Assembly (NCBI RefSeq): GCF_004358445.1
Contig: NZ_CP037951.1
Span: 1,785,501-1,849,500 of the forward strand
From: Parashewanella tropica
GTDB taxonomy: Bacteria; Pseudomonadota; Gammaproteobacteria; Enterobacterales; Shewanellaceae
DNA length: 64,000 bases
Direction of reading: 5' to 3'
Shown in pieces: positions 7,737-42,590 of the stretch. Under the pieces are notes generated by a model that saw nothing but the letters and a program-made list of their open reading frames with translations, had not been told where the DNA came from and did no database searches. Positions within the stretch are counted from its first letter, which is position 1. Each line of letters opens with the position of its first letter. The position numbers and the translations under genes are program-made.

Positions 7737-7968
7737 CCTAAAAATATCAGTTGAACGCTACAAAATGATCAACTTTATAAGATTTAAAATGTTTAGCTCA
7801 CCTCACCTGTTACCCAACGTGTGAAAGCTCTATTGTCCACAAGCTTGCTAAAATACCAGTTAGCTGTGTTGTAACTTTTGCAAATAGGCTCACTACTTGC
7901 TGCAAGCTACGCCTTGCTAACCGTCATTTTTTCTACGCTAGAGAACATAGCCAACCGATGTTTTTAGG
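7737..7968 (+). repeat. Family A inverted-repeat element, copy 1 (232 bp, MITE-like)
   Basis: The 328-base gap between corA and the next gene is mostly this element. Its left end CCTAAAAATATCAGTTG matches the reverse complement of its right end (CCTAAAAACATCGGTTG). The interior from about 7837 to 7950 aligns closely with the copy at 57933-58164, which has exactly the same length and orientation. There is no coding capacity. It begins at the first base after the corA stop codon. The MITE-like class is inferred from terminal inverted repeats plus dispersal; no transposase is seen. Confidence 0.8.
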
Positions 7969-8064
7969 TTTTATCAAAAATCTTTATGTTTCTAAAATGT
8001 TAGATTTGTTTTGGCTCAGGCAGTATAGTGGGGCAAATGCCGTATTGCTGTTTGAGTTAAACAA

Positions 8065-8760
8065 ATGGACTTTATAGAAGTATATCCTAACGCCTTATCT
8101 GACGAATTTTGTGATCGCTTAATTAAAACCTTTTCTGAGCATTCTGGTGTTAGAGCTGGAGAAACAGGAAATGGTATCGATAAAGACAAAAAGCTTAGTC
8201 AAGATCTTACCTTAGATAATTTCCCTGATTTAACTGTCATAAAAAATGAGCTGTTAGGCTATACCCTAAAAGGCGCAACGGATTATTTTACCAAGTATTC
8301 AATGGCGTTAATGGGCGCGGTTTCTGTTTCAGTTATGGATGAAAACAATCAGTCTACTTTCCTTAACCCTGAAAATTTCGATAGCCTAGGCAAGCCAAGA
8401 GCTGAACCTCTAGTAAAATACCTGTATCGAAGTGGCACGATTAATGTGCAACGCTACCTGCAAAATCAAGGTGGTTATCACCATTGGCATTCTGAGCAAT
8501 TCCCGCAGCTAAATCATAATGAGGCACTACACAGAGTGGTTTTGTATATGTTTTACCTGAATGATGTAGAAGAAGGCGGGGAAACCGAGTTTTACTATCA
8601 GCAGCGTAAGATTAAACCCCAAAAGGGCACTATGGTTATCGCCCCTGCTGGATTTACTCATACACATAAAGGACATATCCCTGTGAGTGGTGATAAATAT
8701 ATCGCTACTTCTTGGATAATGTTCCAGAGAGCCGAACAGCTTTATGCGCCGATTGCCTGA
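8065..8760 (+). CDS. 2OG-Fe(II) oxygenase, prolyl-4-hydroxylase-like
   Basis: A 231-residue cytoplasmic protein with the C-terminal fold of the prolyl 4-hydroxylase/PhyH-like 2-oxoglutarate oxygenases. The likely first iron ligand is in GYHHWHSEQ (H-x-E instead of the commoner H-x-D). Then come LNDVEEGGETEF, typical of the core strand, and the distal histidine in FTHTHKGHIPVSGDKYIATSW, with a lysine or arginine position for 2-oxoglutarate. The substrate cannot be told from sequence. It is a single gene, convergent with the downstream sensor kinase with a 10-base gap. Family assignment is good; function is open. Confidence 0.8.
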   Translation: MDFIEVYPNALSDEFCDRLIKTFSEHSGVRAGETGNGIDKDKKLSQDLTLDNFPDLTVIKNELLGYTLKGATDYFTKYSMALMGAVSVSVMDENNQSTFLNPENFDSLGKPRAEPLVKYLYRSGTINVQRYLQNQGGYHHWHSEQFPQLNHNEALHRVVLYMFYLNDVEEGGETEFYYQQRKIKPQKGTMVIAPAGFTHTHKGHIPVSGDKYIATSWIMFQRAEQLYAPIA

Positions 8761-8770
8761 TGATTCTAAA

Positions 8771-10111
8771 TTAAGTCACAGGAATTTTGATTTCAATTTT
8801 GGCGCCATCAAACTTGGAGGTAGTAATATTCAGTTCTCCGCCATAGGTATCGACAATTTCTTTGCAAATTGCTAATCCAAGTCCTGTTCCTGCGTGTTGG
8901 GTGTCAGCCCTGAACCCACGTTGTAATATTTTAGTTTTGAGTTCATCTGGAATGCCCGGGCCATCGTCTTCAACACTGAAATAGAATGATTTTTTATTTC
9001 GTTTGGCTTCGAAATGGACTTTGCTAATACAGAGTCGAAACGCATTTTCCAATAGGTTTCCACATAGCTCAGTTAAATCGTCTTTATTGCAAGGAAAGGT
9101 TACTTTTTTATCAATATATGAAGTGAAGCTAATATCTCTTTCTTGGTAAAGCTTATGTAAAATAGGAACGAGCTGGTCGATAACTTCTGAAATTTTAGTG
9201 GACTCGTCAATTAGCGATTTACGCCCAAGCAAAGCACGCTTTAAGTGATATTTAACCATGTCGTCCATTTGATACACTTGCTCTAATATATTGTTTTGTT
9301 TATTTTCATTGTCGGTATCTTCAATTAAGGCACGAATTGATGACAACCTTGTTTTTAAGCTATGGGCAAGATCATTAATAGTATTTTTATAGCGCTCTTG
9401 CTGAGCAGCAGATTGAAGAAGGAGTTGGTTTAAGGCGTTCACTGTTCCTTTAAACTCTCTAGGATAGTGTTGATTTAAATGTGTGGTATTGCCTTTTTTT
9501 ATCTGGTTTAATTCATTGATCATTCGCCGAAACGGTCTAATCCCCCAATAAGCCATTGCCGCTAAAAATAAACTGGTGAGTAACAAAATCACACCTAACT
9601 GAATATAAGTTTGTTGACTGAATTGTTGATATTCAAGACTAAAGCCGCCTGCATCCTTTAGCACTAAAAGGGTTACATGTTGTTTTTGTGTCTCTAATTC
9701 CAGTGGGTAAATTAGGTAGGTTTTCCCATCGGTTAGCTTTACGTAGTAGGGTGGTTGTTTGTGTTTGACTTTACGGTATTCATTACAGGTATTAACTAAA
9801 TTTCTGCGATTAGCTAAATGAGATGACCAAATTTGCTTATGGTTTTTATCACAGCTTACCATCAAGAAATCTATGGGGTTTTCAGGCGTATCTAAAACAC
9901 CTTGGCTTGGATTATCAATGTGTTTTTTAACAGCTTCTATGGCCGTCGGAATGTCAGCCATTAGTGCTTCAGTTTGTTGATTAAAACTTTGCTGGACGTG
10001 TAATTGGTTTATGAGCCAAGCCAAAGAGATGCTAAGCAAAGAAATAATAATGAAAGCCCCAACCAATAATTGGGTTAATAAGCTAGGGCTATTTCGGGTT
10101 TTTAATTGCAT
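8771..10111 (-). CDS. phoQ: Sensor histidine kinase, PhoQ-like
   Basis: Membrane sensor kinase of 446 residues. It has a first membrane helix at about 15-36, a periplasmic domain to about 170, a second helix at about 172-191, HAMP-like linker, then an H box NDLAHSLKTRL with phospho-acceptor His250, N box GNLLENAF near 351, and glycine-rich ATP boxes DDGPGIP and GTGLGL. The H box closely resembles PhoQ (LTHSLKTPL) and the partner resembles PhoP. I do not see a clear acidic cluster like the E. coli PhoQ sensor patch, so the signal may differ. It overlaps the regulator gene by 10 bases and is downstream of it. Confidence 0.82.
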   Translation of the reverse strand: MQLKTRNSPSLLTQLLVGAFIIISLLSISLAWLINQLHVQQSFNQQTEALMADIPTAIEAVKKHIDNPSQGVLDTPENPIDFLMVSCDKNHKQIWSSHLANRRNLVNTCNEYRKVKHKQPPYYVKLTDGKTYLIYPLELETQKQHVTLLVLKDAGGFSLEYQQFSQQTYIQLGVILLLTSLFLAAMAYWGIRPFRRMINELNQIKKGNTTHLNQHYPREFKGTVNALNQLLLQSAAQQERYKNTINDLAHSLKTRLSSIRALIEDTDNENKQNNILEQVYQMDDMVKYHLKRALLGRKSLIDESTKISEVIDQLVPILHKLYQERDISFTSYIDKKVTFPCNKDDLTELCGNLLENAFRLCISKVHFEAKRNKKSFYFSVEDDGPGIPDELKTKILQRGFRADTQHAGTGLGLAICKEIVDTYGGELNITTSKFDGAKIEIKIPVT

Positions 10112-10776
10112 GGTTGGTTAAACTTATAACCTTGACCTCTAATGGTACTGATGGGGTTTTCTAATCCATGTAAAGCCAGTTTTTTTCTTAATCGGCTGAC
10201 CATCACTTCAATGGTATTTGGGTCACCTTCACGATCGGCATAAATAACATCTAACAGTCGGCGTTTGGTTACCACTTCATGATTATGACGCATTAAGTAC
10301 TCTAAAATAAGGTATTCAAAAGCGGTTACGTCAATGGTTGATCCACTCAAACTTACTTGTTTTGCAGCGAGATCTATTTCCAAATCTCCACTGGTGATCA
10401 AAGGCTTAACAAAACCAGCACTTCTTCGAACCAAAGCATCTAATCTTGCCACCAATTCTTCTTTTTGAAATGGTTTGACGAGATAGTCATCAGCACCTGC
10501 ATTGAGACCTTCGACTTTATCTTTCCAATGCATCCGAGCTGTTAAGATGAGAATCGGGGCTTTTAAATCATCATCTCTGAGCTTTTTAATGAGATTAATA
10601 CCATCGAAATCGGGTAAACCTATATCAATAATTGCGATATCTATCGGGTAATTTATCGCTTGGTAGTGGCCTTCTTTTGCATTTAAGGCAACTTGAACCT
10701 GATTTCCTAGCTCTGAGAGCTGAACTTTAAGATGATGTGATAAAAGTGGATCATCTTCTACAACCAATATCCGCAT
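10102..10776 (-). CDS. phoP: OmpR-family response regulator, PhoP-like
   Basis: A 224-residue DNA-binding response regulator. The receiver domain has acidic residues E7-D8-D9, phospho-acceptor D51 in IIDIGLPDFDG and the conserved lysine in LVKPF. The C-terminal winged-helix domain ends STIRGQGYKF. The start MRILVVEDDPLLSHHLKVQL closely resembles E. coli PhoP; the open frame extends eight codons further upstream but ATG at 10776 gives the family N terminus. It is the first gene of the pair, with a perfect palindrome just upstream that could be an operator. Confidence 0.88.
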   Translation of the reverse strand: MRILVVEDDPLLSHHLKVQLSELGNQVQVALNAKEGHYQAINYPIDIAIIDIGLPDFDGINLIKKLRDDDLKAPILILTARMHWKDKVEGLNAGADDYLVKPFQKEELVARLDALVRRSAGFVKPLITSGDLEIDLAAKQVSLSGSTIDVTAFEYLILEYLMRHNHEVVTKRRLLDVIYADREGDPNTIEVMVSRLRKKLALHGLENPISTIRGQGYKFNQPCN

Positions 10777-10798
10777 TGTTATCTTCCAATAGTAAATC

Positions 10799-10821
10799 AA
10801 ATATCAATTCAATTGATATTT
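10799..10821. promoter_or_regulatory. Perfect 23-bp palindrome upstream of phoP
   Basis: AAATATCAATT and AATTGATATTT flank a single central C, 22 bases before the phoP start codon and in the divergent space with nadE. It is not the PhoP direct-repeat box of enterobacteria. The TTGAT half-sites point outward, so it is not an FNR-type site either. It is probably an operator for a dimeric regulator, or a leader hairpin; which one is unknown. Confidence 0.5.
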
Positions 10822-10974
10822 ACCTAAGCAAAAGAAAAGTGATGTATTTTTGTACGTCAGAATGTTTTATATACAAAATAGGGTTCGGTTGGAAGTAAAA
10901 ATTGACTACTTTTAATCTTAAATAAATGTTAGATTTCAGGTCTCTTTTTTAGTTTCGTAATTTTTGGAGCAAGT

Positions 10975-11823
10975 GTGAAGGCACAGATCATTGAGGAAAT
11001 GAAGGTTCAACCTCAAATCGATTCAGAACAAGAAGTTCAGCGTAGAGTAGGGTTTATTAAGACAATGTTGCTTAATTCTGGCTGTAAAAGTGTCGTTCTT
11101 GGGATCAGTGGCGGTGTCGATTCATCTCTAGCAGGACGTCTTTGTCAGTTAGCTGTTGAGCAACTGAATGATGAACAAAAATTTAATCAATATCAGTTTT
11201 TCGCAGTCCGTTTACCTTACAAAATTCAAAAAGATGAGGATGAAGCTCAATTGGCCTGCCAATTTATTCAACCTTCTCAGCAAGTGACTGTGAATATTGC
11301 TTATGGTGCAGATGGCATTCATTCAGAAGTACTAGCAAGCTTAGAAAATGCCAATGTAAATGTTGATGACGGAATCAATATTGATTTTGTAAAAGGTAAC
11401 GTGAAAGCTCGCCAACGTATGATCGCGCAATATGAAATTGCGGGTCTGGTAAACGGTTTAGTTGTTGGTACGGATCACAGTGCCGAAAACATCACAGGTT
11501 TTTATACCAAGTGGGGGGATGGTGCTTGTGATTTAGCGCCTTTATTTGGGTTAAGTAAACGCCAAGTTCGTCAACTAGCAAGCTATTTAGGCGCTCCAGA
11601 TCTCTTGGTAAATAAAGCTCCTACTGCTGATTTAGAGGAAGACAAGCCTCAATTAGCTGATGAAGTTGCATTAGGTTTAACCTACGATCAAATCGATGAC
11701 TTTTTAGAAGGTAAACACGTTAGTTCTGATGTAGAAGAAACCTTGATTGGAATTTATAAAAGAACCCAACATAAGCGAAAAGCCATTCCTACCATATACG
11801 ATAACTATACTCATGATACCTGA
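10975..11823 (+). CDS. nadE: NH3-dependent NAD synthetase
   Basis: Amidates deamido-NAD to NAD using ammonia and ATP, the last step of NAD synthesis. The 282-residue protein has the PP-loop [13 protein letters not shown] near residue 43, [19 protein letters not shown] and the HKRK C-terminal region of the bacterial homodimeric form. It lacks the glutaminase domain of longer enzymes. The start is GTG with TTGGAG six bases upstream. The last residues THDT and the stop codon are read from the left end of repeat element C, so the natural C terminus has probably been altered by the insertion. Confidence 0.93.
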
Positions 11824-12118
11824 AGATGCAGGATTTCAGCGAGAATACTTTTTATTAAGAGTATTGCCATTTAGGCAAGTTAGTTATCCGCGGTAAACGC
11901 AGTAACGACAGTTTTGTATGTCGGTCATAGTTAGTCTATTTCAAGGGTAAGTATCGCAGAATAAATGGCAATTAAACTCGCACGGAGTGGGCTTTTCAGC
12001 GTTGATTCTTCTTTGTTGTGAAAGCTTAAATTAGCCCGCTATTTCTGCGCTTTCACGCCTCGAATAATGCAACGCTGAATAAGCCCTGAAAGTTGCACCT
12101 TCAAGTATCATGGGTATA
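11806..12118. repeat. Family C inverted-repeat element (313 bp) with nested hairpin
   Basis: The ends form roughly 34-bp inverted repeats with few mismatches: the left end begins TATACTCATGATACCTGAAG, the right end read on the other strand begins TATACCCATGATACTTGAAG. Inside lies a second inverted repeat (GGGCTTTTCAGCGTTG at 11989-12004 against 12070-12086) and within that a GTGAAAGC/GCTTTCAC pair (12018-12025, 12049-12056). The element covers the nadE stop codon and ends four bases before the DUF2919 start. There is no coding capacity. It fills the whole nadE-DUF2919 gap. Confidence 0.8.
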
Positions 12119-12122
12119 TAAC

Positions 12123-12596
12123 GTGCTAGATTTTTCTCATATTCGTTGGCTTGATGATAAAGGGCGGGTAAAACCGCCTTTAACTTTGTATATCGTTTTG
12201 GCTTTTTTGGCTAGATCATGGTGTGTTTTTGCCATGTCATTGACTCAATCTGGTCAACGTGATGTTTTAGTAAAACTCTTTTATCCTGAAAAAACTGACT
12301 TCATTTCGGGCTTGGTTGCAGGCTCTATTGCGGTTGTGATTTTTTTTCTGATTACTTTTGAACGAAGAGGCAAGCCAACGTTTCTTATTCCACTATTTAA
12401 ACGGATTAAATGGGGACTATTTGTTACCTTAGTCGCAGAAGTTTATCTCATATATGTCAAACTATCCCATTTACAGTTTCAGTTTAGTTGGCAAAGCGGT
12501 TTGGAAGTTTTAGGGCTCTTTTGGTGTTGGCTGTTCATCATTAAATCACAACATTTAGAGTATTATGTCAAAAACTGGACACTCGACAGAGAATAG
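12123..12596 (+). CDS. DUF2919 family membrane protein (YfeZ-like)
   Basis: A 157-residue integral membrane protein with about four hydrophobic helices and the family hallmark near the N terminus, KPPLTLYIVLAFLARSW. Function is unknown. The open frame extends upstream into repeat element C to a TTG at 12093. GTG 12123 gives the normal N terminus MLDFSHIRWLDDKG, with only a weak GGGT as ribosome-binding region, and that lies inside the repeat's end. A 9-bp hairpin (12587-12595 with 12600-12608) overlaps its stop codon. Confidence 0.72.
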   Translation: MLDFSHIRWLDDKGRVKPPLTLYIVLAFLARSWCVFAMSLTQSGQRDVLVKLFYPEKTDFISGLVAGSIAVVIFFLITFERRGKPTFLIPLFKRIKWGLFVTLVAEVYLIYVKLSHLQFQFSWQSGLEVLGLFWCWLFIIKSQHLEYYVKNWTLDRE

Positions 12597-12658
12597 CGGT
12601 ATTCTCTGCAACTGTTTATACAGAATAACGTATTCAATTTTTGTATACCTCATAATGG

Positions 12659-13879
12659 ATGTGGTTTTTTGGCATGCCGAATTTAGTAAAAATTCCCGTT
12701 TCTGACGTTCAATTAGGGATGAAGGTAAAGATCCCTACATCATGGAAAGACCATCCTTTTTTTAGAAGCAGTATTTGGATAAAAACCAATAAAGAACTCC
12801 AAGTTATTAAAGGCTTAGGCTTACCTTATGTGTATTTGCTTGAAGGACACTATCAAGTCACAGAACAAGTTCAAAAACCTGAGGAACTCAGTGTTCAGGG
12901 TAAAGAGTCATATTCTGAGCAAAGCATTTTTGACCACAGTAAAGAAATTAAACAAGCCATTCATAAAAGCCAGAAAAGATTTTCGTTTAATATAAATGAA
13001 AACCAAGTCATTCATAGTAAGTTACTTACTGATCCCGATGGCGCTTATCGTCTTTCAGCTGGGGTTGCAGACCAACTTTATCAACACCTGACAGAGACAG
13101 AGGATACACACCTTTGTACGGTTAAAAAGCCTGAGTCTCATAGAGATGTGAGTCAGCATTGTGTATCTGTTGCTGTGATTTCTATGCTGTTGGCTAAAGT
13201 CATAGGCTTGAGTGAAGAACAAATAAGAGATGTTGCTCAAGGGGCGTTAGTACATGATTATGGAAAAAGTAAGGTCCCAGATAGTATTGTTAGGAAAACA
13301 GGTGAACTTACGAACAGTGAAAAGAACTTTCTCAACTTACACCCAACCTACGGCGTTAATATCTTAAAGCCACAGGGTGTTTGGTCTGAAGCGGTATTGA
13401 GTATTGTTGGATCACATCACGAATTTATTGATGGCAGTGGTTTTCCCAAGCAGTTAAAAGGAAAACAAATCCCAATAACAACTCAGGTTGTCAGTCTTGC
13501 AAATGAGTTTGAAAACTTATTAAACGACTCGAGATTCAGCTCATCAAAACTGGCGCTGGGTTATCTTTACAAGAACGGTTCGAAACGACACGATCCTGAA
13601 TTATTGGCAGCGTTAATTAAAACAATTGGAGTCTTCCCACCAGGCACAATAGTCAAGTTGCAAGACGGGTGTTTTGCAAAGGTTTTAGTTAATAAAAACC
13701 ATAGCAATTTCCCTGATGTTTTAAGCTGCACTGAATCAGGCTCAAAAGCAAAAATGCGATGTTTAGAAGATGAGCAAGTGGCTATTGATAGCGTGGTAAA
13801 TAAAGGAGAGTTACCAGAAAATGTTCTTCAAGCACTGGGTGGCGATCAGGCTGTAAGTTTTTATTTTTGTTCAGAGTAA
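12659..13879 (+). CDS. HD-GYP-type phosphodiesterase-like protein with N-terminal DUF3391
   Basis: A 406-residue cytoplasmic protein. The N terminus (PNLVKIPVSDVQLGMKV to about residue 120) fits DUF3391, usual in front of HD-GYP domains. The HD-GYP region from about 160 to 300 has the metal-binding ALVHDYGKSKVPDSIV and HHEFIDGSGFP. The family signature is HHExxDGxGYP, so the GYP tyrosine is phenylalanine here. Such proteins hydrolyse cyclic di-GMP. Start ATG 12659 has little ribosome-binding sequence; ATG 12674 is an alternative. It leads a close-packed run with the next two genes. Confidence 0.85.
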   Translation: MWFFGMPNLVKIPVSDVQLGMKVKIPTSWKDHPFFRSSIWIKTNKELQVIKGLGLPYVYLLEGHYQVTEQVQKPEELSVQGKESYSEQSIFDHSKEIKQAIHKSQKRFSFNINENQVIHSKLLTDPDGAYRLSAGVADQLYQHLTETEDTHLCTVKKPESHRDVSQHCVSVAVISMLLAKVIGLSEEQIRDVAQGALVHDYGKSKVPDSIVRKTGELTNSEKNFLNLHPTYGVNILKPQGVWSEAVLSIVGSHHEFIDGSGFPKQLKGKQIPITTQVVSLANEFENLLNDSRFSSSKLALGYLYKNGSKRHDPELLAALIKTIGVFPPGTIVKLQDGCFAKVLVNKNHSNFPDVLSCTESGSKAKMRCLEDEQVAIDSVVNKGELPENVLQALGGDQAVSFYFCSE

Positions 13880-13892
13880 TAAGAGAATCTTC

Positions 13893-14711
13893 ATGAATCA
13901 AAAAGTTACTATCATTGGCTGTGGTTGGTTTGGTTTTCCTTTAGCTAAGCATTTACTGGAATTAGGCTTTCAAGTTTCTGCAAGTAAACGCGAAGCTTCA
14001 TCACTAGAATCACTTAAAGATGAAGGTATCAAAGCTTTTACTTTGGATTTAGAGCAAGAACTGACTGGTACTGTTGAAACTATTGCTCCTTTTTTACAAT
14101 CGGAATACCTTATTGTTACCGTGCCTCCAAGGTTGAGAAGGCAAACATCATCGACTTTTTTATCTCAGTTAAAAAAGCTAATGCAGATTATTGACGTTGA
14201 ACAGTACAACAAAATCGTCTTTACTAGCTCAACATCTGTTTATCCTGATATTGATAAAATAATGGTCGAAGAAGACGCTACATCGCATTCTGAATCAAGC
14301 GAAACCATGTTGGCAGCTGAAGATTTATTTTTAAAGCATAATAATGGCTATGTTTTGCGATTCTCCGGTTTAATGGGGCCTCAACGGCCACCGGGTCGTT
14401 TTTTTGCAGGCAAAACTCAAATTCCCGCTGGTGATAAGGTGGTGAACTTAGTTCATCAAACTGATTGTATTCAGGCGATGGTTTCTTTGTTAACAGCTGA
14501 TTCAGCTAGTAAAGTTTATAATGTATGTTCACCTCATCATCCATCTCGTAGCGAATTTTATACACAAGCTACTCGTGAGTTGGGGGTTGAGTTACCTGAA
14601 TTCCTAAATGATGGTGTTCATGGAAAAGAGGTGAGTGGATCTAAAATTAGTTGTGAATTGGGATTTTCATATCAGTTTGATGATCTATTTGTCGCACTTA
14701 AAGCTTGTTGA
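13893..14711 (+). CDS. NAD(P)-binding epimerase/dehydratase-like protein (YeeZ type)
   Basis: A 272-residue Rossmann-fold protein starting KVTIIGCGWFGFPLAKHLLELG, the dinucleotide-binding glycine motif of the atypical extended SDR/YeeZ-like group. It continues with KIVFTSSTSVYP and the sugar-epimerase-like FSGLMGPQRPPGRFF and NLVHQTDCI. There is no clear YxxxK, so catalysis is uncertain. It lies 13 bases after the HD-GYP gene and is followed at once by the DsbA-like gene, whose ribosome-binding site begins just past its stop. Confidence 0.75.
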   Translation: MNQKVTIIGCGWFGFPLAKHLLELGFQVSASKREASSLESLKDEGIKAFTLDLEQELTGTVETIAPFLQSEYLIVTVPPRLRRQTSSTFLSQLKKLMQIIDVEQYNKIVFTSSTSVYPDIDKIMVEEDATSHSESSETMLAAEDLFLKHNNGYVLRFSGLMGPQRPPGRFFAGKTQIPAGDKVVNLVHQTDCIQAMVSLLTADSASKVYNVCSPHHPSRSEFYTQATRELGVELPEFLNDGVHGKEVSGSKISCELGFSYQFDDLFVALKAC

Positions 14712-14725
14712 TTAAGGGGAATATT

Positions 14726-15346
14726 GTGATAAAAAAGCTCTATGCATCTATTTTTATTTGTGCATTTTCTTTTTTGTGTAATCAAGCGTTAGCTGCTAAT
14801 TACGTAGAAGGTAAAGACTATACTAAAGTTGAGGGTTTCCCAGAAACCCATAAGCCTGTGGTAAGAGAGTTTTTCTCATACAACTGTCCTCACTGTTATC
14901 ATGCTGAGCCTAGCGTTGAAAAAATGGCTACGATGTTGAAGGGTAAGGTGGCGTTTGTTCGTACTCCGGTAGGAGCAGGGCGTCCGAGTTGGATATTAGG
15001 GCAAGAAGCGTATTATGTGGCGCAAAAGCTTAGAATTACTAATCAAGTGCATAGCCAAATTTTTCATTACATTCATGAAGAAGCAGGGCCATTTACTTCA
15101 GCCTCTCAACTTAGAGCATTTTTTATAACTCAAGGGGTTAAAGGTGCTGAGTTTGATAAGGTATACAACTCTCCTGAAAAGAAATCAGCGTTTAGCGAAT
15201 ACGGCATTCAGGTGCAGCTCTCAGGTATTAGTGGTGTACCTACATTTTTAATTAATGGCATTTATGAAGTCAATCCGAGTGGAAAGTCAGCTTCTGAGCT
15301 AGTGGCCATTGTCAATTATTTAGTGAAGTTAAAGCCTAAAAAATGA
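14726..15346 (+). CDS. dsbA: DsbA-like periplasmic thiol:disulfide oxidoreductase
   Basis: A 206-residue exported protein. A signal peptide (IKKLYASIFICAFSFLCNQALA) is followed by a thioredoxin-fold domain with the CPHC active site in FFSYNCPHCYHAEP and the cis-proline loop SGVPTF. DsbA introduces disulfides into secreted proteins and is reoxidised by DsbB. GTG 14726 is chosen because AAGGGGA lies five bases upstream; the open frame starts earlier, overlapping the previous gene. The MIKKLYAS start gives a normal basic n-region. It is likely co-transcribed with the two genes before it. Confidence 0.9.
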   Translation: MIKKLYASIFICAFSFLCNQALAANYVEGKDYTKVEGFPETHKPVVREFFSYNCPHCYHAEPSVEKMATMLKGKVAFVRTPVGAGRPSWILGQEAYYVAQKLRITNQVHSQIFHYIHEEAGPFTSASQLRAFFITQGVKGAEFDKVYNSPEKKSAFSEYGIQVQLSGISGVPTFLINGIYEVNPSGKSASELVAIVNYLVKLKPKK

Positions 15347-15350
15347 GTGT

Positions 15351-15381
15351 GATGCCTAATCGAAAAAATCGACTAGGCATC
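15351..15381. terminator. Hairpin between convergent dsbA and ankyrin gene
   Basis: GATGCCTAATCGA pairs with TCGACTAGGCATC (one mismatch) around an A-rich loop, five bases after the dsbA stop. There is no strong T tract on the plus strand. On the minus strand a short T run follows after a gap. It is probably a bidirectional terminator. Confidence 0.5.
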
Positions 15382-15394
15382 AAAAATTTCAAGT

Positions 15395-18224: not shown

Positions 18225-18227
18225 AAA

Positions 18228-28802: not shown

Positions 28803-28807
28803 AATGT

Positions 28808-31965: not shown

Positions 31966-31987
31966 AAGTAATAATTTTACTTGCTTA

Positions 31988-33649: not shown

Positions 33650-33651
33650 AA

Positions 33652-33681
33652 GAGGCTAATATCGTTATAATTATTAGCCTC
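33652..33681 (-). promoter_or_regulatory. Hairpin abutting the dnr start codon
   Basis: GAGGCTAATA (33652-33661) pairs perfectly with TATTAGCCTC (33672-33681). In the dnr mRNA the stem would end two bases before the ATG and occupy the ribosome-binding region. It has no T tract, so it is unlikely to terminate PCuAC-gene transcripts well. A role in translational control is inferred. Confidence 0.5.
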
Positions 33682-33738
33682 ATAACATAAACCAATTAAT
33701 ATGAAAAAACACCCCGTCAGATCAAAGTTATGAAATAA

Positions 33739-34200: not shown

Positions 34201-34212
34201 TGTTATTCTCCT

Positions 34213-34854
34213 TTATTTAGTAGCAAGTAATTGTGCGACATCATCACGCATTTCTTTGAGTGGAGTGCCTGTATAGAAATAACCACGCATACGACCTTTA
34301 CCGTCTATCACGAAAATCTTGGCGGTGTGTGAAAATAAATAGCCTTTTTTCTTCGGTGCATTTTTGTCTTCCAAGCTGAGTTTTTTAAACTCAGTGGTTA
34401 CTCTTTCATCCGCTAGCTTTGAGTATTCTGCACTGTAGAGTTTGGCAACATGATCAATTTTTTCTTTGTCATCTACTAAGCCGATAAAACTTGGATCGAA
34501 ATAGCTGAGATATTTATTAAGATGCTTAGGGGTATCGTATTCACTGTCGATACTGACAAACAGAACTTGCACTTTAGCTTGTTGCTCGGGTGGGAGTTTT
34601 TTTACCATTTGTGCAACATGAGCCATGGTAGTAGGGCAAATATCGGCACAGTTGGTATAGCCGAAAAACATGAGAACGACTTTGCCTCGAAAATCTGAAA
34701 GGCTAACTTGTTCTCCTTTACTGCTATTGAGAGTGAAATCTCCACCAATGCCTTTTAGGATTGGCATCTTCGCCTGAGCGGGTAAAATTGAGGTGATTAA
34801 TGCAATCGCTGCAATAAGTGAAGATTGCTTAAATAATTTAATGAATTTGTTCAT
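34213..34854 (-). CDS. SCO1/SenC family copper chaperone
   Basis: A 213-residue exported thioredoxin-fold protein. After a signal segment ending QAKM it has the CxxxC copper motif (Cys69 and Cys73 in FFGYTNCADICPTTM) and the third ligand in LFSHTAKIFVID. SCO proteins load copper into cytochrome oxidase and some other cuproenzymes. Position between PCuAC and the nirK end suggests service to the copper nitrite reductase. It belongs to the same minus-strand series as its neighbours. Confidence 0.92.
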   Translation of the reverse strand: MNKFIKLFKQSSLIAAIALITSILPAQAKMPILKGIGGDFTLNSSKGEQVSLSDFRGKVVLMFFGYTNCADICPTTMAHVAQMVKKLPPEQQAKVQVLFVSIDSEYDTPKHLNKYLSYFDPSFIGLVDDKEKIDHVAKLYSAEYSKLADERVTTEFKKLSLEDKNAPKKKGYLFSHTAKIFVIDGKGRMRGYFYTGTPLKEMRDDVAQLLATK

Positions 34855-34867
34855 TTAAAGTTCCTTA

Positions 34868-35743
34868 TTAACAACGAATTTCAGCGCCAAGATCAGTAAC
34901 TGGTGGTAAATATTTAGCTTTATATTCGTGCACAATTACCACGCCATTTTCGATGCTAACGACAAGATTAACCCCTAATTGTGCAAGCTCATCTTCATCG
35001 TATTGGTTTAGAAGACTCCATTGATATTCAAAATCAATTTGAAATTGATCAGTTCCACTGATGGGTTTTATATTCAGATTTCGAATCGCACGTCTGCTGG
35101 TTTTAGCTTTTGTGTTTGCTAAAAGGTTAAAGTAATCCGCAAGAGAAGATGTTGAAGCCTCTTCTGCGTTAAATTTAGTATTAGCTGTAAAATGCTTATT
35201 CCAAGAAATATGGCTGTTAGGCTGATTGACGCTTAAGTTGTCTAGGTGCTGTGTCCATTGATAAATAAATGCTTTGATTAAGTTTGGTGCACTAGCACTT
35301 CGAAACTTAGAGGTAAAATCGTCTTTTTCATTAGTAAGGGTTTTACTGCTTAATATTTTTCCCGATTGCTTATCAAGCTTTAGTGTTTGAATTAAATAGT
35401 AACCATAGACCTCATTGGTATCGGTTATTTTTGGGAGAAACTCTAGCTCTACCTCCACTTCAGCAATTTTATTATCTTGTTTTATAGGGACAATAGATAA
35501 AAGGTGATGGGCGCCTTGGATTACCTTTGCATCTTTTAATTCTTGAAAGTCTACATTGGGATATTGAGCTTGTTTTTCCTTGGTGAGGTTTCGGGAGTCA
35601 AGGAAACCATACCATTGATAAACGGCACTGTTTAATGGGTAATCAATTCGCTTTTCGGCTGCATTTAAGGTTGGGGTGAGGGTGAGCAATAGACATACAG
35701 TGAGAAGAGTGAATCGCCGCCATTGCTTAAGAACATTTATCAT
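34868..35743 (-). CDS. Exported protein of unknown function in the nirK operon
   Basis: A 291-residue protein with a signal peptide (FTLLTVCLLLTLTPTLNA). No family is recognised. Two halves start alike, AVYQWYGFLDSRNLTKE near residue 39 and AFIYQWTQHLDNLSVN near 157. Each is followed by a mixed alpha/beta stretch, as in tandem NTF2-like or Tim44-like domains (inference). It contains one cysteine, the last residue. Position between nirK and SCO, with 13 bases to the latter, suggests a periplasmic role in nitrite reductase maturation or NO handling. Confidence 0.65.
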   Translation of the reverse strand: MINVLKQWRRFTLLTVCLLLTLTPTLNAAEKRIDYPLNSAVYQWYGFLDSRNLTKEKQAQYPNVDFQELKDAKVIQGAHHLLSIVPIKQDNKIAEVEVELEFLPKITDTNEVYGYYLIQTLKLDKQSGKILSSKTLTNEKDDFTSKFRSASAPNLIKAFIYQWTQHLDNLSVNQPNSHISWNKHFTANTKFNAEEASTSSLADYFNLLANTKAKTSRRAIRNLNIKPISGTDQFQIDFEYQWSLLNQYDEDELAQLGVNLVVSIENGVVIVHEYKAKYLPPVTDLGAEIRC

Positions 35744-35772
35744 GGTTGGCTCCCTTTTCTAGAATGAAAGTA

Positions 35773-35790
35773 GAGGGCGTTTCCGCCCTC
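35773..35790 (-). terminator. Hairpin between nirK and the next gene
   Basis: GAGGGCG and CGCCCTC pair around a TTTC loop, 20 bases after the nirK stop. Only a weak T stretch follows on the minus strand. It may be a partial terminator or a stabiliser that keeps nirK mRNA above that of the downstream genes. Confidence 0.45.
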
Positions 35791-35810
35791 ATTAGCTTGG
35801 CGTTATGGTG

Positions 35811-36971
35811 TTATGCCATTTTGGTTGGTTTTTTAAGTTGAACCATTAGGTCGTCATCCCACTCGCCGTCTACTTTAATGTGACCCGCAGCGCCTTTCAT
35901 GATGGCTTCAATCAAGTTATGGTTCACATAAGCGTATAGACCTGGTTGTAAGAAGGTGTAAATTGCTGCGCCAGCACAGCCACCTGGGATACCCCAAGTT
36001 TCAAGGTCTGTTTGAGGTGCATCATTAAACTGACCTGTTGCCCATACGTAATCGCCATGACCACCAATAATGTGTGGGCGTGTATCACGGTTTGGCTGAG
36101 AGTGAATGAACATGACGGTTTCACCAACCTTCGCAGTCATGGCATTTTTACCTGTTAATGCGCCTACAGCCCCGTTAAATACGATGTGTGATGGGGTAAG
36201 TGTCTTCATTACCTCTAAGGTATCGTTCATGCTGCCAGTAACGGTTGAGTATTCTTTGTACTTACCGTTTTTATCTGTTGGTACATAGAAGTCCTGCTCG
36301 CCAACATAGTAGGCTTTGTCATAACGGATTGGGTTGCCATGACCATCTTTTAAGCCATCACGTGGAAGAACCATAATTGCACCCGCCATACCCATTGCAA
36401 CGTGCCACGGGATCATGATGCCGCCTGGTGCACAGTGGTAAACGAAGGTGCCTACTTTAGTTGCTTTAAAGCGGAATGTGACTTCTTCACCTGGAGAAAC
36501 AAGAGTGAGTTCACCACCACCTAATGCACCCGTTGACGCATGTAAATCGATGTTATGTGCTAATGCATTGGTTTTAGGGTTTTTAAGCGTTAATTCAACA
36601 TAATCGTGTTGGTGACATACAATGAGTGGCCCAGGAACACTACCATTGAATGCAGAAACCCAAGCTTTAACACCATTTTCAAGCTCAACTTGCTTTTCTT
36701 CAACAGTCAGAGTGACTTGGACTACTTTTGGCTTTCCTTTTGCCACTTGGTCATGTTTAGGCACGAATGGTGGAGGAACGAGTTCTTGAGTGACACGCTC
36801 TAGTTGGTCTGCCGTATACCTCGCCATACGGTCACTTTTTTTATGATGACTTGCAGAAGCTGAGGTTGATACTAACCCTGCTGCTAAACCTGCACCTACT
36901 AAACCTACACCTACCGAACCGCCTAAGAAGTTACGACGTTGGGTGTTGATATCGTTTGTTTTCTTTTCCAT
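35811..36971 (-). CDS. nirK: Copper-containing nitrite reductase
   Basis: Periplasmic two-cupredoxin-domain enzyme reducing nitrite to NO. The 386-residue precursor has a twin-arginine signal ([13 protein letters not shown]) and cleaves near SASA. The type 1 and type 2 copper ligands are in [16 protein letters not shown] and [22 protein letters not shown], with later ligands near [13 protein letters not shown] and LYAYVNHNL. It is first in a cluster with copper chaperones and Dnr. A Dnr/Fnr-like palindrome lies about 108 bases upstream. Confidence 0.96.
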
Positions 36972-37072
36972 GACCTGCTCCGAATATTGTTTGTAACGTG
37001 ACGCAAACTAAAAATAAATTGATGCTCGTTTGCGCTGTTGTGTAAAGAATATTCGCAGCAAGTAAAATTGAA

Positions 37073-37086
37073 TTGACTTTAGTCAA
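37073..37086. promoter_or_regulatory. Dnr/Fnr-type operator upstream of nirK
   Basis: TTGACTTTAGTCAA is a perfect palindrome with the half-sites and spacing of Fnr/Dnr boxes (TTGAT-N4-ATCAA), with C/G in place of T/A at the fifth position. It is centred about 108 bases upstream of the nirK start codon in the 296-base nirK-trmJ gap. Activation by the Dnr-like protein encoded at 32897 is inferred. The rest of the gap shows no gene beyond a possible 11-codon reading frame at 37220-37255. Confidence 0.7.
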
Positions 37087-37267
37087 TTTTGATAACGAAA
37101 TTTAAATAATTAAGTTACTTTTAGCACATTTTGAAGGGGGAGAGCGCATGTAAACTGAATACTGTCATAACCCTTATAAAACAAACAATATCTTAGATAT
37201 ACACACTTAACGGAGCATTATGTTACTATCCCGCTTTATATTCTTTAAGAAGTAAAGTCGAATCCAC

Positions 37268-37987
37268 ATGCTTGATAATATTCGTATCGTTCTTGTCGGA
37301 ACATCTCATCCGGGAAATATTGGTTCAGTAGCCAGAGCAATGAAAACCATGGGGCTAACTAAGTTATATCTAGCCGAACCGAGAGTCGAGCCTGATGGGC
37401 AGTCTATAGCGTTAGCGGCTGGAGCTGCGGATATCTTAAAAGATGCCGTAACGGTTGATTCGTTCGATAAAGCGATTGAGGATTGCAGTTTAGTCGTCGC
37501 TACAAGTGCAAGAAGTCGAACGCTCGATTGGCCTGTACTAGAGCCAAGAGAAGCGGGTGAAAAGCTGGTGGAAGAAGGGCAAAGCCATGATGTTGCTATC
37601 GTATTTGGGCGTGAAAATCATGGCTTAACTAATGAAGAGCTACAGAAGTGCCACTATCATGTAGTGATCCCTGCTAATCCTGATTACAGCTCTTTAAATC
37701 TTGCTCAAGCTGTTCAAATCGTTTGTTATGAAACTCGTATGGCGATGTTAAATGCCACTCGTGAGCCACAAGATATCCCTGAATATCCTCTGCAAAAAGA
37801 TCAAGAGCGATTTTTTGAACACCTTGAAAATACACTTTCAAATACTGGGTTTATTATCAAGAATCACCCTGGGCAGATCATGACAAAGCTTCGTCGTTTG
37901 TTCACCCGAGCTAGGATTGAATCTCAAGAAATGAATATTTTGAGAGGTATTTTGACCTCCATCGACAAAGCCACTAAGAAGGATTAG
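37268..37987 (+). CDS. trmJ: tRNA (cytidine/uridine-2'-O-)-methyltransferase TrmJ
   Basis: SPOUT-family enzyme methylating the 2'-OH of position 32 in tRNAs. The 239-residue product has [48 protein letters not shown] and [19 protein letters not shown], the knotted AdoMet site. No good ribosome-binding sequence is seen. The stop codon is immediately followed by repeat element B1. Confidence 0.94.
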
Positions 37988-38149
37988 TAAGTACCCATGC
38001 TAATGAAAACATATTTTTTGATGCCCCTTTTAAGCACTGCGCCGCGTTCCTATTGCTTGAAAGACTGCCGGTATTCCTTCGCAGTAGCGCCTTGCTCAGC
38101 ACTTAAAATGAACACCAAAATTCTTCGATTAAATTTGCATGGATACTTA
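37988..38149 (+). repeat. Family B inverted-repeat element, copy 1 (162 bp, MITE-like)
   Basis: The left end TAAGTACCCATGCTAAT matches the reverse complement of the right end (TAAGTATCCATGCAAAT). The interior (TTTTTTGATGCCC, AAGCACT, GTATTCCT, GCCTTG, CAAAATT) aligns with the reverse complement of 41757-41919. It starts on the base after the trmJ stop and ends five bases before the cysE ATG, filling the gap. TA at both ends could be a target duplication of the IS630/Tc1 type (inference). Confidence 0.82.
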
Positions 38150-38154
38150 TCATC

Positions 38155-38976
38155 ATGGGTATGATTTCTAGAATCAAAGAAGATATTGCTTCTATTTACC
38201 ATAGAGACCCAGCAGCAAGAAGTACTTGGGAAATTTTATTAAATTACCCTGGAATGCATGCGATTTGGTTACATCGTGCAAGCCATAAGCTATGGAAAAA
38301 CGAGTGGTTTCTATTAGCGCGAGTGATTTCAACATTTTCACGTTGGTTAACAGGGGTTGAAATACATCCCGGTGCCACAATCGGTAGACGTTTCTTCATC
38401 GACCACGGTATGGGGGTCGTAATTGGTGAAACTGCCGAGATTGGTGATGACTGTACTTTGTACCATGGTGTGACTTTAGGTGGTACAAGCTGGAATAGCG
38501 GTAAGCGTCACCCGACTTTAGGTAACAATGTCGTTATCGGTGCTGGTGCAAAAGTTCTTGGTCCTATTCTGATAGAAGACGGCGCTAGGGTTGGCTCAAA
38601 CTCAGTAGTGGTGAAAACCGTTAATAAAGAAAGAACGGTTGTGGGTATTCCGGGTAGGGAAGTTGCTACGCAAACCGAACAAGCCGAAGAAACGACACGC
38701 CGTAGAAGTGAAATGGCGAAAAAATACGGCTTTGACGCTTATGCTGTTTCTCCAGATAACCCAGACCCAGTTGCCAATGCTATTGGTCAGTTGATGGATC
38801 ATATGCATTTAATGGACTCTAAGCTCCAAGATGTTTGTCATGAAGTTCAACAAATGGGTGGTGAAGTCTGCACTGATAAGTTGCCTGAATTGAATATCGA
38901 GGAATTTTCAGAAGACGAACTTGCTGCTGCTGAAAAACGTAAGAAGCAGATGGATGAGTTTGATCCTATGATCTAG
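38155..38976 (+). CDS. cysE: Serine O-acetyltransferase
   Basis: Acetylates serine to O-acetylserine, the first committed step of cysteine synthesis; cysteine then feeds IscS encoded downstream. The 273-residue enzyme has the N-terminal helical domain ([21 protein letters not shown]) and left-handed beta-helix hexapeptides from [23 protein letters not shown] to [17 protein letters not shown]. The C-terminal tail is longer than in short SAT forms. The leader directly before ATG 38155 is the end of repeat element B1. Confidence 0.95.
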
Positions 38977-38982
38977 CAATTA

Positions 38983-39013
38983 TTGAGGTTTTTAAGCTAG
39001 TTAAAAGCCTCAA
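38983..39013 (+). terminator. Hairpin after cysE
   Basis: A 13-bp stem with one G-U pair (38983-38995 with 39001-39013) and a five-base loop lies seven bases after the cysE stop. No T tract follows, so termination efficiency is uncertain. Confidence 0.5.
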
Positions 39014-39163
39014 CCTCCCTTGTTTGTAACCTTAATTTAACATCTAACTGTTAAATCAAAATAAAATCCATTTTTTCATTGAATTTAGCGTACGAACAAG
39101 GTTAAATACGCGGCTGAAACCTCACATATCTCCTGTAAATCTCTTCCTAGATCACATTTTAGA

Positions 39164-39188
39164 ATACTTGACTAAATTAGTCAGGTAT
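39164..39188 (+). promoter_or_regulatory. IscR type 1 site over the isc promoter
   Basis: The 25-base sequence starting ATACTTGACTA and ending TTAGTCAGGTAT fits the type 1 IscR consensus. It overlaps a good promoter: TTGACT at 39168-39173, 17-base spacer, TTAAAT at 39191-39196. Repression of the operon by Fe-S-loaded IscR is expected from the E. coli model. Confidence 0.88.
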
Positions 39189-39230
39189 GTTTAAATTCAC
39201 ACTATAAGATTAGTAGGAACAGGTTTAGTA

Positions 39231-39692
39231 ATGAAACTTACCTCAAAAGGACGCTATGCCGTTACAGCAATGCTTGACGTTGCGATCCACTCTGCGAGCG
39301 GTCCTGTTCCACTGGCAGACATTTCAGAAAGGCAGGGAATATCTCTGTCCTACTTAGAACAGCTTTTTGCCAAGTTAAGAAAGAAAGGTTTAGTTGCCAG
39401 TGTACGTGGTCCAGGTGGTGGATATCGCCTTGGTCAAGATGCAGCTGAAATTTCTGTTGGCATGGTTGTGCACGCAGTAGATGAATCTGTGGAAGCGACA
39501 CGCTGTCATGGTCAAGGTAATTGCCAAGGTGGAAACCGCTGTCTTACTCACTCTTTATGGGGTGATTTAAGTAAACAGATTTCAGACTTTTTAGACGGTA
39601 TCAGTCTTGAAGGTCTTATGAATAAAAGAGATGTCCAGTATATCTCTGTAAAACAAGATAAAATGCAGCAAGAACATAGGCTTTCTTTATAG
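39231..39692 (+). CDS. iscR: Fe-S cluster regulator IscR
   Basis: Rrf2-family [2Fe-2S] regulator of Fe-S biogenesis. The 153-residue protein has the winged helix ([39 protein letters not shown]) and the three cluster-ligating cysteines at 92, 98 and 104 exactly as in E. coli. It is first in iscRSUA-hscBA-fdx and preceded by its own binding site, so autoregulation is expected. Confidence 0.97.
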
Positions 39693-39779
39693 AGATCTAG
39701 CCTTAAGATTTTTGCGTAATAATAATTGATGTTTGTACCTTTTGTGTCGAAGTAACGACAAATGTGTACGGAGTGTGTA

Positions 39780-40994
39780 ATGAAGCTTCCTATCTATTTG
39801 GACTATGCAGCAACAACGCCGGTTGATCCTCGTGTTGCTGAAAAGATGATGCAGTACATGACCATGGACGGAGTCTTTGGTAACCCTGCTTCACGTTCTC
39901 ACCGCTATGGCTGGCAAGCTGAAGAAGCGGTAGATATCGCGCGTAATCAAATCGCTGATTTGATCAACGGTGACCCTCGTGAAATTATTTTTACCTCAGG
40001 TGCTACGGAGTCGGACAACCTTGCAATTAAAGGTGTTGCACACTTCTACCACAAAAAAGGTAAGCACATTATCACCAGCAAAACTGAACACAAAGCAGTA
40101 CTTGATACTTGCCGTCAGTTAGAGCGTGAAGGCTTTGAAGTTACATACCTTGAGCCAGATGCTAACGGTATTATTCCAATGGAACGCCTTGAAGGTGCAA
40201 TGAGAGAAGACACCATTCTTCTGAGCTTGATGCACGTGAACAACGAAATTGGCGTTATCCACGATATTAAAGCTATTGGCGAGCTTTGTCGTTCAAAGAA
40301 AATTATTTTCCACGTTGATGCTGCACAAAGTGCGGGTAAATTACCAATCGACGTTCAAGACATGAAAGTGGATTTGATTTCAATTTCAGGTCACAAAATG
40401 TATGGACCTAAAGGAATCGGTGCACTTTATGTACGTCGTAAGCCTCGTATTCGTCTAGAAGCTATGGTTCACGGTGGTGGGCATGAGCGTGGTATGCGTT
40501 CAGGTACGCTAGCGACTCACCAAATTGTTGGTTTAGGTGAAGCTGCGGCAATTGCTAAAGCCGATATGGACAAAGATAACGACCGTATCCGTCATCTTCG
40601 TGACAAACTATGGTCTGGTATTAAAGACATCGAAGAAACTTACATTAATGGTGACTTCGACAGCCGTTATTGTGGTGCTTTAAACGTAAGCTTCAACTTT
40701 GTTGAAGGTGAATCGTTGATGATGGCACTTAAAGACTTAGCTGTTTCTTCTGGTTCAGCTTGTACATCAGCAAGCCTTGAGCCTAGCTATGTTCTACGTG
40801 CGTTAGGTTTGAACGATGAAATGGCTCACAGCTCGATTCGTTTCTCAATCGGACGATTCACCACAGATGAAGATATTGATTTCGCCATCGACATCATTAA
40901 CAAGTCTATCGGTAAATTACGTGATATGTCTCCGCTATGGGAAATGTATCAAGACGGTGTTGATTTAAATTCAGTTCAATGGACTCACCATTAA
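39780..40994 (+). CDS. iscS: Cysteine desulfurase IscS
   Basis: PLP enzyme taking sulfur from cysteine and passing it to IscU, TusA and others. The 404-residue length equals E. coli IscS. Lys206 of [12 protein letters not shown] binds PLP and the persulfide cysteine is in [24 protein letters not shown] 39780 with ACGGAG upstream gives [14 protein letters not shown]; the frame is open six codons further up, but that part is not conserved. Second gene of the isc operon. Confidence 0.97.
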
Positions 40995-41006
40995 GGAGTA
41001 CTAATT

Positions 41007-41402
41007 ATGGCGTACAGTGAAGAAGTAATTGACCACTACGAAAACCCTCGTAATGTTGGTTCCATGGACAAGAACGATCCAAACGTTGCGACAGGTATGG
41101 TGGGTGCACCAGCGTGTGGTGACGTAATGAAGCTGCAACTTAAGATTAATGAAGAAGGCATTATTGAAGATGCTAAATTCAAAACTTATGGTTGTGGTAG
41201 TGCAATTGCCTCTAGTTCACTTGTTACAGAGTGGGTTAAAGGTAAGACGATGGAAGAAGCTGCCCAAATTAAAAATACCCAAATTGCGCAAGAGCTGGCT
41301 TTACCACCTGTAAAAATTCACTGCTCAATTTTGGCTGAAGATGCAATTCAAGCAGCTTTGGAAGATTTTAAGTCTAAGCAACAAGCGCTAGCTGAAGGTT
41401 AG
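41007..41402 (+). CDS. iscU: Fe-S scaffold protein IscU
   Basis: Scaffold on which IscS sulfur and iron are assembled. The 131-residue protein has cluster cysteines 37 (GAPACGDV), 63 (YGCGSA) and 106 (KIHCSIL) and the HscA-binding motif LPPVKIHC. It lies 12 bases after iscS with GGAG in front of the ATG. Confidence 0.97.
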   Translation: MAYSEEVIDHYENPRNVGSMDKNDPNVATGMVGAPACGDVMKLQLKINEEGIIEDAKFKTYGCGSAIASSSLVTEWVKGKTMEEAAQIKNTQIAQELALPPVKIHCSILAEDAIQAALEDFKSKQQALAEG

Positions 41403-41417
41403 TCATTGGAGTATTAA

Positions 41418-41741
41418 ATGGCTATTACCATGACAGCTGCGGCTTCAGATCGTGTAAAGGCATTTTTAAAAAATCGCGGTAAAGGTATTGGACTGCGTTT
41501 AGGTCTTAAGACATCGGGTTGCTCAGGGATGTCTTATGTTCTTGAGTTCGTTGATGAGCTTAATGACGATGATGAAATCTATGAAATTGAAGGCGTAAAC
41601 ATCATTATTGATGCGAAAAGCTTTATTTACCTGCAAGGTATTGAATTAGATTTTGTTAAAGAAGGCTTAAACGAAGGCTTCCAATTTAATAACCCAAATG
41701 CGAAGGGAGAGTGTGGTTGCGGTGAAAGTTTTACCGTTTAA
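41418..41741 (+). CDS. iscA: A-type Fe-S carrier IscA
   Basis: A 107-residue A-type carrier that moves Fe-S clusters or iron to target proteins. The three conserved cysteines are in [10 protein letters not shown] and the C-terminal GECGCGESF. It is the last gene before the operon is interrupted by repeat element B2. Confidence 0.96.
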
Positions 41742-41756
41742 TTACACCAAAATTCA

Positions 41757-41919
41757 TAAGTACCTGAGCATGAGTTTTTTAATAATTTTGATGTTCAGGT
41801 TAAGTACTATACAAGGCATTCTTGTGCAGGAATACGAGTAGTCATTCAAACAAGAATAACGCAGTAGAGTGCTTGAAATGGGCATCAAAAAATAGAATAA
41901 ACTTGTGGTTAGGTACTTA
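41757..41919 (-). repeat. Family B inverted-repeat element, copy 2 (163 bp), inside the isc operon
   Basis: It runs in the opposite orientation to the copy at 37988-38149. Its ends, TAAGTACCTGAGCATGA on the left and TAAGTACCTAACCACAA on the other strand at the right, are inverted repeats; the interior aligns with copy 1 after reverse complementing. It starts 15 bases after the iscA stop and ends one base before the hscB ATG, so the hscB ribosome-binding region lies within the element (AGG at 41911-41913). Confidence 0.82.
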
Positions 41920-41920
41920 G

Positions 41921-42448
41921 ATGAACTATTTTGAGCTTTTTGGCTTCCCAACAAACTTCTCAATCGATAGCGCTCAACTCTCTGAGCGTTATCGAGAGCT
42001 TCAAAGAACCGTCCATCCTGATAAATTTGCCAATAGTAGCGAACAAGAAAAGTTACTGGCAGTGCAAAAAACAGCACAGATTAACGATGGTTTCCAAACT
42101 CTAAAAAATCCTATTCGTCGTGCAGAGCATATCTTACAACTTCGTGGTATCGATTTAAGCCATGAAACCACAACGGTTAAAGATACCAGCTTTTTAATGC
42201 AACAAATGGAATGGCGTGAAGCGTTGGAAGATATTTCTGGAGCTACCGACCCTCATCAAGGTATTGATGAACTTCAAACGTCATTTAAGCAGCACGAAGC
42301 GGAATATTCCTCTGTATTGGTTTCTAAATTAGAAATTAATAGTGACGATGCCAATTTAGAGGCGGCTGATCAGATACGTAAGCTGAAATTTATGGCAAAA
42401 TTGCAGGATGAACTAACACGTATCGAAGATGACTTATTTGATCTTTGA
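41921..42448 (+). CDS. hscB: Fe-S co-chaperone HscB
   Basis: J-domain co-chaperone that brings IscU to HscA. The 175-residue protein has the J domain NYFELFGFP with the HPD motif in [16 protein letters not shown] and the C-terminal three-helix IscU-binding domain. Its gene starts one base after repeat element B2 and is separated from hscA by 202 bases with a compound hairpin, which is unusual for this operon. Confidence 0.96.
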
Positions 42449-42495
42449 TGTGACTAGTGATCTTTTAGGCTGAACTATATCAGTGAATATTTGAT

Positions 42496-42590
42496 GGAGT
42501 GATAGTGTGATAAGACAACCGTCCGTGACAGGACGTCACGGTCGTTAGCACATGGATGTGCGTTTCAGTTGTCGTTCACACTATCGCTCC
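42496..42590. repeat. 95-bp compound inverted repeat between hscB and hscA
   Basis: Outer arms GGAGTGATAGTGTGA and TTCACACTATCGCTCC, extending to GACAAC/GTTGTC, enclose two inner hairpins: CCGTGAC-AGGAC-GTCACGG and GCACAT-GG-ATGTGC. In the isc mRNA it would fold into a branched structure within the 202-base gap. It differs from families A to C. It may be a small mobile element or a processing and stability signal. Confidence 0.75.

Follow-up and report, generated by a model that had tools for sequence, protein, structure and literature searches.

Intergenic repeats that supply stop codons, extend proteins and nest in one another have already been described, and we compare with them three new families of palindromic repeats, termed A, B and C, from a 64,000-nt stretch of the Parashewanella tropica genome (contig NZ_CP037951.1, positions 1,785,501 to 1,849,500 of the forward strand; the whole stretch is called the window). 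The genome holding the window (G000; one contig, 4.22 Mb) was analyzed together with four Parashewanella sister genomes (G001 to G004). G001 matches a P. curva contig identically across 7473 nt, and CysE from the window genome is 97% identical to P. curva CysE (L042).

In pneumococcus, according to PMC3049150, BOX, RUP and SPRITE are interspersed intergenic repeats that are probably parasitic and insert into one another, and among 58 coding sequences overlapping BOX the stop codon at the 3' end is BOX-encoded in 36. The same source finds the pneumococcal repeats over-represented between convergent genes, and A, B and C may be likewise in two sister genomes (7/21 in G001, 10/38 in G004); however, sequences and host differ from those of BOX, and in G000 only 2/34 host gaps are convergent compared to 43/299 of all gaps. 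Correia/NEMIS, ERIC and RUP are miniature inverted-repeat transposable elements (MITEs) which, as described in PMC2229807, resemble A, B and C in being small, with terminal inverted repeats (TIRs), a terminal TA and a stable hairpin RNA once transcribed. Family A differs from them by its 5-bp WTNAW duplications, and family C by its length of 264 nt and its additional forms of 42-44 and 54 nt. Coxiella QMITE2 (PMC5896051) inserts in frame at the 3' end of a gene and lengthens the protein (EnhC), as a family C copy does in nadE of the window; unlike A, B and C, it makes variable duplications of 7-11 nt and bears a repetitive extragenic palindrome (REP) targeted by IS1111. A fourth, unrelated repeat of the window, termed D, is the only one to recall the CGTC-tagged REPs treated in PMC3733652, since it has CGTC next to a palindrome and is found mainly on the 3' side of genes. 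At 97 nt and with an extra outer stem it also differs from them. In the passages compared, GTAG repeats are the only ones mentioned for some Shewanella.

Among the titles and abstracts listed by a literature search none names the Parashewanella repeats described here, although this does not prove that they are undescribed. The TIRs of A, B and C probably differ from those of Correia, ERIC and RUP. At Rfam gathering thresholds none of A, B, C and D has a family match in the window, and at E <= 1 there is likewise no match for the D copy in L347, the A copy in L302 or C1 in L014, the copies that this laxer scan covered. The A, B and C copies of the window, and the nadE stop codon inside one of them, are as follows.

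7737..7968, + strand: A1, MITE family A, 232 nt, TIR CCTAAAAAYATCAGTTG; its first base directly follows the corA TAA
11808..12116, + strand: C1, MITE family C, 309 nt including a nested insert; in the nadE/DUF2919 gap
11821..11823, + strand: present nadE stop TGA, within the C1 terminal repeat, ending 16 nt inside the element
37988..38149, + strand: B1, 162-nt copy of MITE family B, TIR TAAGTACC; fills the gap between trmJ and cysE
41757..41919, + strand: B2, 163-nt copy of family B; preceded by iscA at 15 nt and followed by the hscB ATG at 1 nt
57933..58164, + strand: A2, second family A copy; 46 and 613 nt between its ends and called genes

B1 directly adjoins the trmJ TAG and leaves 5 nt up to the cysE ATG, and the other end of A1 is 96 nt away from a gene. 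The positions given in the original prediction (A1 from the first base after the corA stop, B1 from the first base after the trmJ stop to cysE -5, B2 up to hscB -1, C1 across the nadE stop) are correct. The DUF2919 gene begins with GTG at 12123, 6 nt past C1, and the -4 reported earlier for this end fits if the flanking TA is counted. The broader statement that the elements end at gene edges applies to six of the ten A, B and C ends in the window, which are inside a gene or at most 6 nt away from one; it was selective, for the remaining four ends (both ends of A2 and the other ends of A1 and B2), at 15 to 613 nt, had gone unmentioned.

Element ends are placed at random among target sites

The abutting of element ends on genes most probably arises mainly from insertion at small targets in very short gaps, and not from a special system of portable leaders. 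Gene boundaries were taken from our own simple gene caller, with no official annotation; it inflates long gaps somewhat and missed some genes, among them DUF2919 (start 12123), which was placed by hand. Pfam matches of the named genes are CorA, NAD synthase, SpoU methylase, hexapeptide/SATase_N, HSCB_C and HSP70. For each copy the gap was rebuilt without the element and the position of a random insertion was computed, either over all positions (uniform null) or over target sites only (TA for B and C, WTNAW-type sites for A). The pooled set came from three genomes (G000, G001 and G004) and comprised 93 sites, of which 87 were left after removal of those where a called gene overlapped the element, and 85 entered the target-only test. 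For G000, 4/23 C places and 2/12 A places, each lacking one end, were left out. In G004, 23/43 family A rows were used, the others being group-II-intron-like at the end (7), in tandem arrays (6), inside another repeat (4) or degenerate or nested (3). Of a set of 19 family B rows 17 were used, and 18 additional G001 C copies were kept out of the pooled test.

The ends that fall inside a gene or no more than 6 nt from one number 13/68 in G000 (34 copies), 6/78 among the C ends of G001 and 4/76 in G004. Under the target-only null, the observed distances of the 85 copies are random among target sites (Kolmogorov-Smirnov p = 0.94), and a minimum distance of <=5 nt is found 8 times compared to 8.7 expected. 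The same holds for G000 alone (6 observed, 6.3 expected, n = 30), and the uniform null gives a Kolmogorov-Smirnov p of 0.16 for 87 copies. On the whole, the abutting of gene edges is explained by host gap and target. It had been proposed that the repeats amount to a system of portable untranslated regions, to be judged by comparing the distances from element ends to start and stop codons with random placement. Since these distances, given the host gap, are those of a random choice of targets, both in the pool and in the window genome itself, this distance claim is refuted. A striking pattern of elements that end exactly at genes can thus arise from short gaps and small targets, and like claims can be examined by a simple conditional test that shuffles elements among target sites of the same gap and uses empty sites in sister species.

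The course of events that we consider most probable would be the following. The three families use small AT-rich target sites, TA in the case of B and C and WTNAW, duplicated over 5 bp, in the case of A, and a presumed transposase would mobilize them in trans. Genic insertions would mostly be lost by selection, leaving survivors in intergenic gaps, many of which are 5-31 nt long in G000. In a gap of this length any target that is used is necessarily only a few bases away from a start or stop codon, and TA or WTNAW targets can themselves form part of a TAA or TAG stop, which sharpens the abutting look. Later, a few ends came to act as a new stop, as in nadE, or possibly as a Shine-Dalgarno site, as before hscB.

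A, B and C are MITE-type elements with short targets

The three families, unrelated to one another, consist of palindromic, non-autonomous, MITE-type elements. Family A, about 232 nt long, has 12 candidate places in G000, 10 of them with both ends, and underwent a burst in G004, where it occupies more than 40 places. Family B occupies five places in G000; an apparent fourth B place at 2445769 was rejected, as it holds no copy and lies inside a gene. Most weak matches to the B pattern are due to chance, as its control counts show (15 and 17 compared to 19 and 18). Family C occupies 23 places in G000 and is usually 264 nt in full length, longer where it carries nested inserts. It has matches in 5/5 genomes of the genus and, at least partially, in 60/141 other genomes of the host's family, with 5 candidates scored per genome. 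Both ends with their TIRs could be placed in 34 G000 copies and in 39 G001 C copies, and filled and empty orthologous sites are seen for A1, B1, B2, C1 and L205. As expected of palindromes, the RNAs of B1, B2, A1 and D fold more stably than shuffled sequences (z = -3.9, -10.0, -2.6 and -7.7, respectively).

Target duplication is found in all three families, and target choice, one of the two explanations in the original prediction, is supported. Perfect 5-bp duplications flank 31/36 A copies in G004, a set that includes tandem and nested copies and whose members are therefore not all independent. All 31 duplications have the form WTNAW, every one with T as its second and A as its fourth base. 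For B, TA is found at both ends in 17/20 copies, and for C it lies just outside the left end in 34/39 and the right end in 33/39 copies.

Some further features of these families were observed. In G004, A copies form head-to-tail arrays, with four copies about 238 nt apart in L323 and two copies in L324, and one copy of the 5-bp target is common to each junction. Seven other A copies of this genome (L302, L308, L304, L313, L291, L315 and L322) are followed at one terminal repeat by a sequence that starts identically. In L302, the only one of the seven that was scanned, this sequence has group II intron matches, one just above and one just below the gathering score, as if the A repeat end were an intron homing site. 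In both species, C also recurs in shortened versions, 42-44 or 54 nt long, at unrelated loci (9/19 copies in G000, 11/39 in G001); these seem, by eye, to be joined at the short repeats TGCA and CTGAA, which suggests recurrent deletion of the hairpin or mobility of 42-nt elements.

Empty sites in sister genomes

Empty orthologous sites indicate how long the gaps were before insertion. The C1 site is empty in G001/P. curva, where 8 nt separate the nadE TAA from GTG. B2 is absent in all four sisters, and the iscA-hscB gap is 12 nt in G001 and 21 nt in G002 and G003. B1 is present in G001 and absent in G002, G003 and G004, with trmJ-cysE gaps of 11, 18 and 22 nt, respectively. The A1 gaps in G001 to G004, all of which lack the element, are 68, 102, 104 and 89 nt. 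Moreover, the site of L205, a 44-nt C hairpin, is empty in G001. At three of the four sites, the closest sister without the element thus has a small native spacer. The argument that chance placement would have left some native spacer therefore fails at C1, B2 and B1, where the gap was already short; at the right side of A1, 96 nt remain.

Erosion of native spacer after insertion need not be assumed at B1, B2 and C1, because the gap is short in the nearest empty sister; longer gaps in other sisters, of 95-96 nt at the C1 site and 81 nt at the B2 site, leave some room for it.

An excess of tight gaps in the window genome

Several results weigh against insertion at small targets in short gaps as the whole explanation. 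The length of a gap at the moment of insertion is estimated from the nearest sister, and not all sister gaps are short: that of C1 is 96 nt in G002 and 95 nt in G003, and that of B2 is 81 nt in G004. With uniform positions the Wilcoxon test is borderline, both for all copies (P = 0.032) and for G000 (P = 0.026). Family B lies within 5 nt of gene edges in 5/20 copies, where the uniform null predicts 2.6 (P = 0.024) and the target-only null 3.2 (P = 0.082). For family A, 3/31 copies lie within 2 nt compared to 0.9 expected under the uniform null (P = 0.052), and 1/29 does so where the strict target null permits about none. No transposase or autonomous partner of C was noticed, in that the C TIR matches listed for G000, G001 and part of G002, inspected by eye, include no pair 0.8-3 kb apart; A and B were not searched. 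Most importantly, 10/34 host gaps in G000 are <=31 nt, while 1.03 are expected if gaps are weighted by TA and 7.1 if they are weighted equally, the background gaps being drawn from stretches around the element copies. This excess is beyond what random insertion and loss of genic copies alone produce.

Selective retention in tight gaps would explain the excess in G000, as a supplement to insertion at small targets. Insertion would be random, and copies in long gaps would then be deleted while those in tight gaps persist, either because imprecise deletion there harms a neighboring gene or because an element end now serves as a stop or ribosome-binding site. We regard such retention as a real possibility, though with somewhat less than an even chance. 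It is consistent with the finding that the excess is confined to the smaller window genome and does not recur among the sampled copies of G001 (1/21 host gaps <=31 nt, 0.56 expected TA-weighted, from a background of only 35 gaps) and G004 (0/38, 0.33 expected, from only 73 gaps). For C, the median host gap is also lower, at 114 in G000 (n = 19) and 381 in G001 (n = 39; P = 0.0015), and the two insertions found to be common to G000 and G001, B1 and L193, both lie in gaps of <=31 nt. However, two common insertions are too few, and common sites were sought only at the sister loci used in this comparison. Moreover, G001 shows no trend with age: neither the number of TIR mismatches (rho = -0.06, P = 0.73) nor the difference between short (n = 11) and full-length (n = 28) C copies (P = 0.26) is related to host gap. 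Parashewanella is a genus in which the retention of MITEs in tight gaps can be dated.

A stronger version, in which an element that enters a tight gap of an operon is caught in a one-way trap, strikes us as unlikely. Here, MITEs whose ends by chance bear stop codons and AGG or GAG motifs would be retained since they first break and then replace translational coupling. Unrelated families would thereby converge on the leader of the downstream gene, and B1 before cysE would be a domesticated, by now conserved leader hairpin.

Stop codons, putative ribosome-binding sites and B1 conservation

With C1 the nadE product ends in DNYTHDT, and in G001, without C1, it ends in DL. The nadE gene is thus a clean case of a MITE taking over the stop codon of a gene between two close species. 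Two of the three reading frames meet a stop in the C terminal repeat, at +9 and +16. A gene into which C inserts shortly ahead of the stop codon therefore terminates within the element, which also sharpens the abutting look. This matches the 6/58 C copies in which the end of a gene falls 16 or 9 nt into the element, namely L194 and C1 among the 19 copies of G000 and L378, L384, L402 and L423 among the 39 of G001. B2 brings an AGGT 6 nt before the hscB ATG, and this end may have a ribosome-binding role; the hscB gap has no clear Shine-Dalgarno site in the nearest sister and AAAGGA in G002 and G003. B1 is identical between G000 and G001/P. curva at 158/162 positions (97.5%; window 37988-38149 compared to L260), while the adjoining trmJ end and cysE match at 1037/1222 (about 85%; Fisher P = 6e-7). 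This conservation could reflect constraint or recombination. Near identity is also seen in the noncoding DNA immediately upstream of hscA, which holds no element, and B1 is therefore no singular case. Co-option of single ends, for the nadE stop and perhaps for hscB and cysE, is plausible.

These same observations, the nadE stop encoded by C1 and the conservation of B1, would be expected if the repeats were portable untranslated regions whose ends are selected as leaders and trailers, providing stops upstream and Shine-Dalgarno motifs downstream. In addition, all five G000 ends that lie within 6 nt upstream of a start have GGGT, AGGT, GAG or GGA 6-11 nt before it (by eye), and in three of five G000 copies of B a start follows the element end at 1-5 nt. 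The motif is, however, a fixed part of each repeat and so no independent evidence, and it was counted without a control. Among the 15 B copies of G004 there is none with an end at <=5 nt from a start, and ends at gene edges are not more frequent than target chance allows. We therefore hold this explanation to be improbable, more so than the trap.

Direct targeting of gene ends, by transposases that recognize stop or start codons or terminator structures and not bare TA or WTNAW, was rejected and is very improbable, because placement is random among target sites, family C lies within 2 nt of a gene once compared to 3.1 expected among such sites, and A copies in G004 are mostly tens to hundreds of nt from genes, even though A1 and L217 directly follow a TAA and a single nucleotide separates L218 from a stop.

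Other repeats in the window

Two other palindromic repeats, D and E, were found in the window.

42496..42592, + strand: D, unrelated 97-nt palindromic family resembling REPs or bacterial interspersed mosaic elements; 47 and 58 nt from its genes
11903..11925, + strand: core of E, a nested palindrome of about 32 nt, inside C1; 12 places in G000

D falls in the range covered by the original prediction and yet does not abut a gene. It has 36 further listed matches in G000, and its gene context was counted at 32 of the 33 places examined in loci of this genome. It lies between two gene starts in 0/32 cases, compared to 51/218 of gaps over 60 nt, and 13-72 nt from a stop codon in 28/32, in either orientation (13 same, 12 opposite). 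Its outer stem shows apparent paired changes by eye. E is a near-palindrome nested in C copies, in a B copy and in other palindromic repeats, in the window and at 11 other G000 places, and seems to be a tiny hairpin that inserts into the loops of other repeats. Finally, positions 56280-56371 of the window, on the - strand, match the SdsR/RyeB small RNA in Rfam with 46.8 bits.

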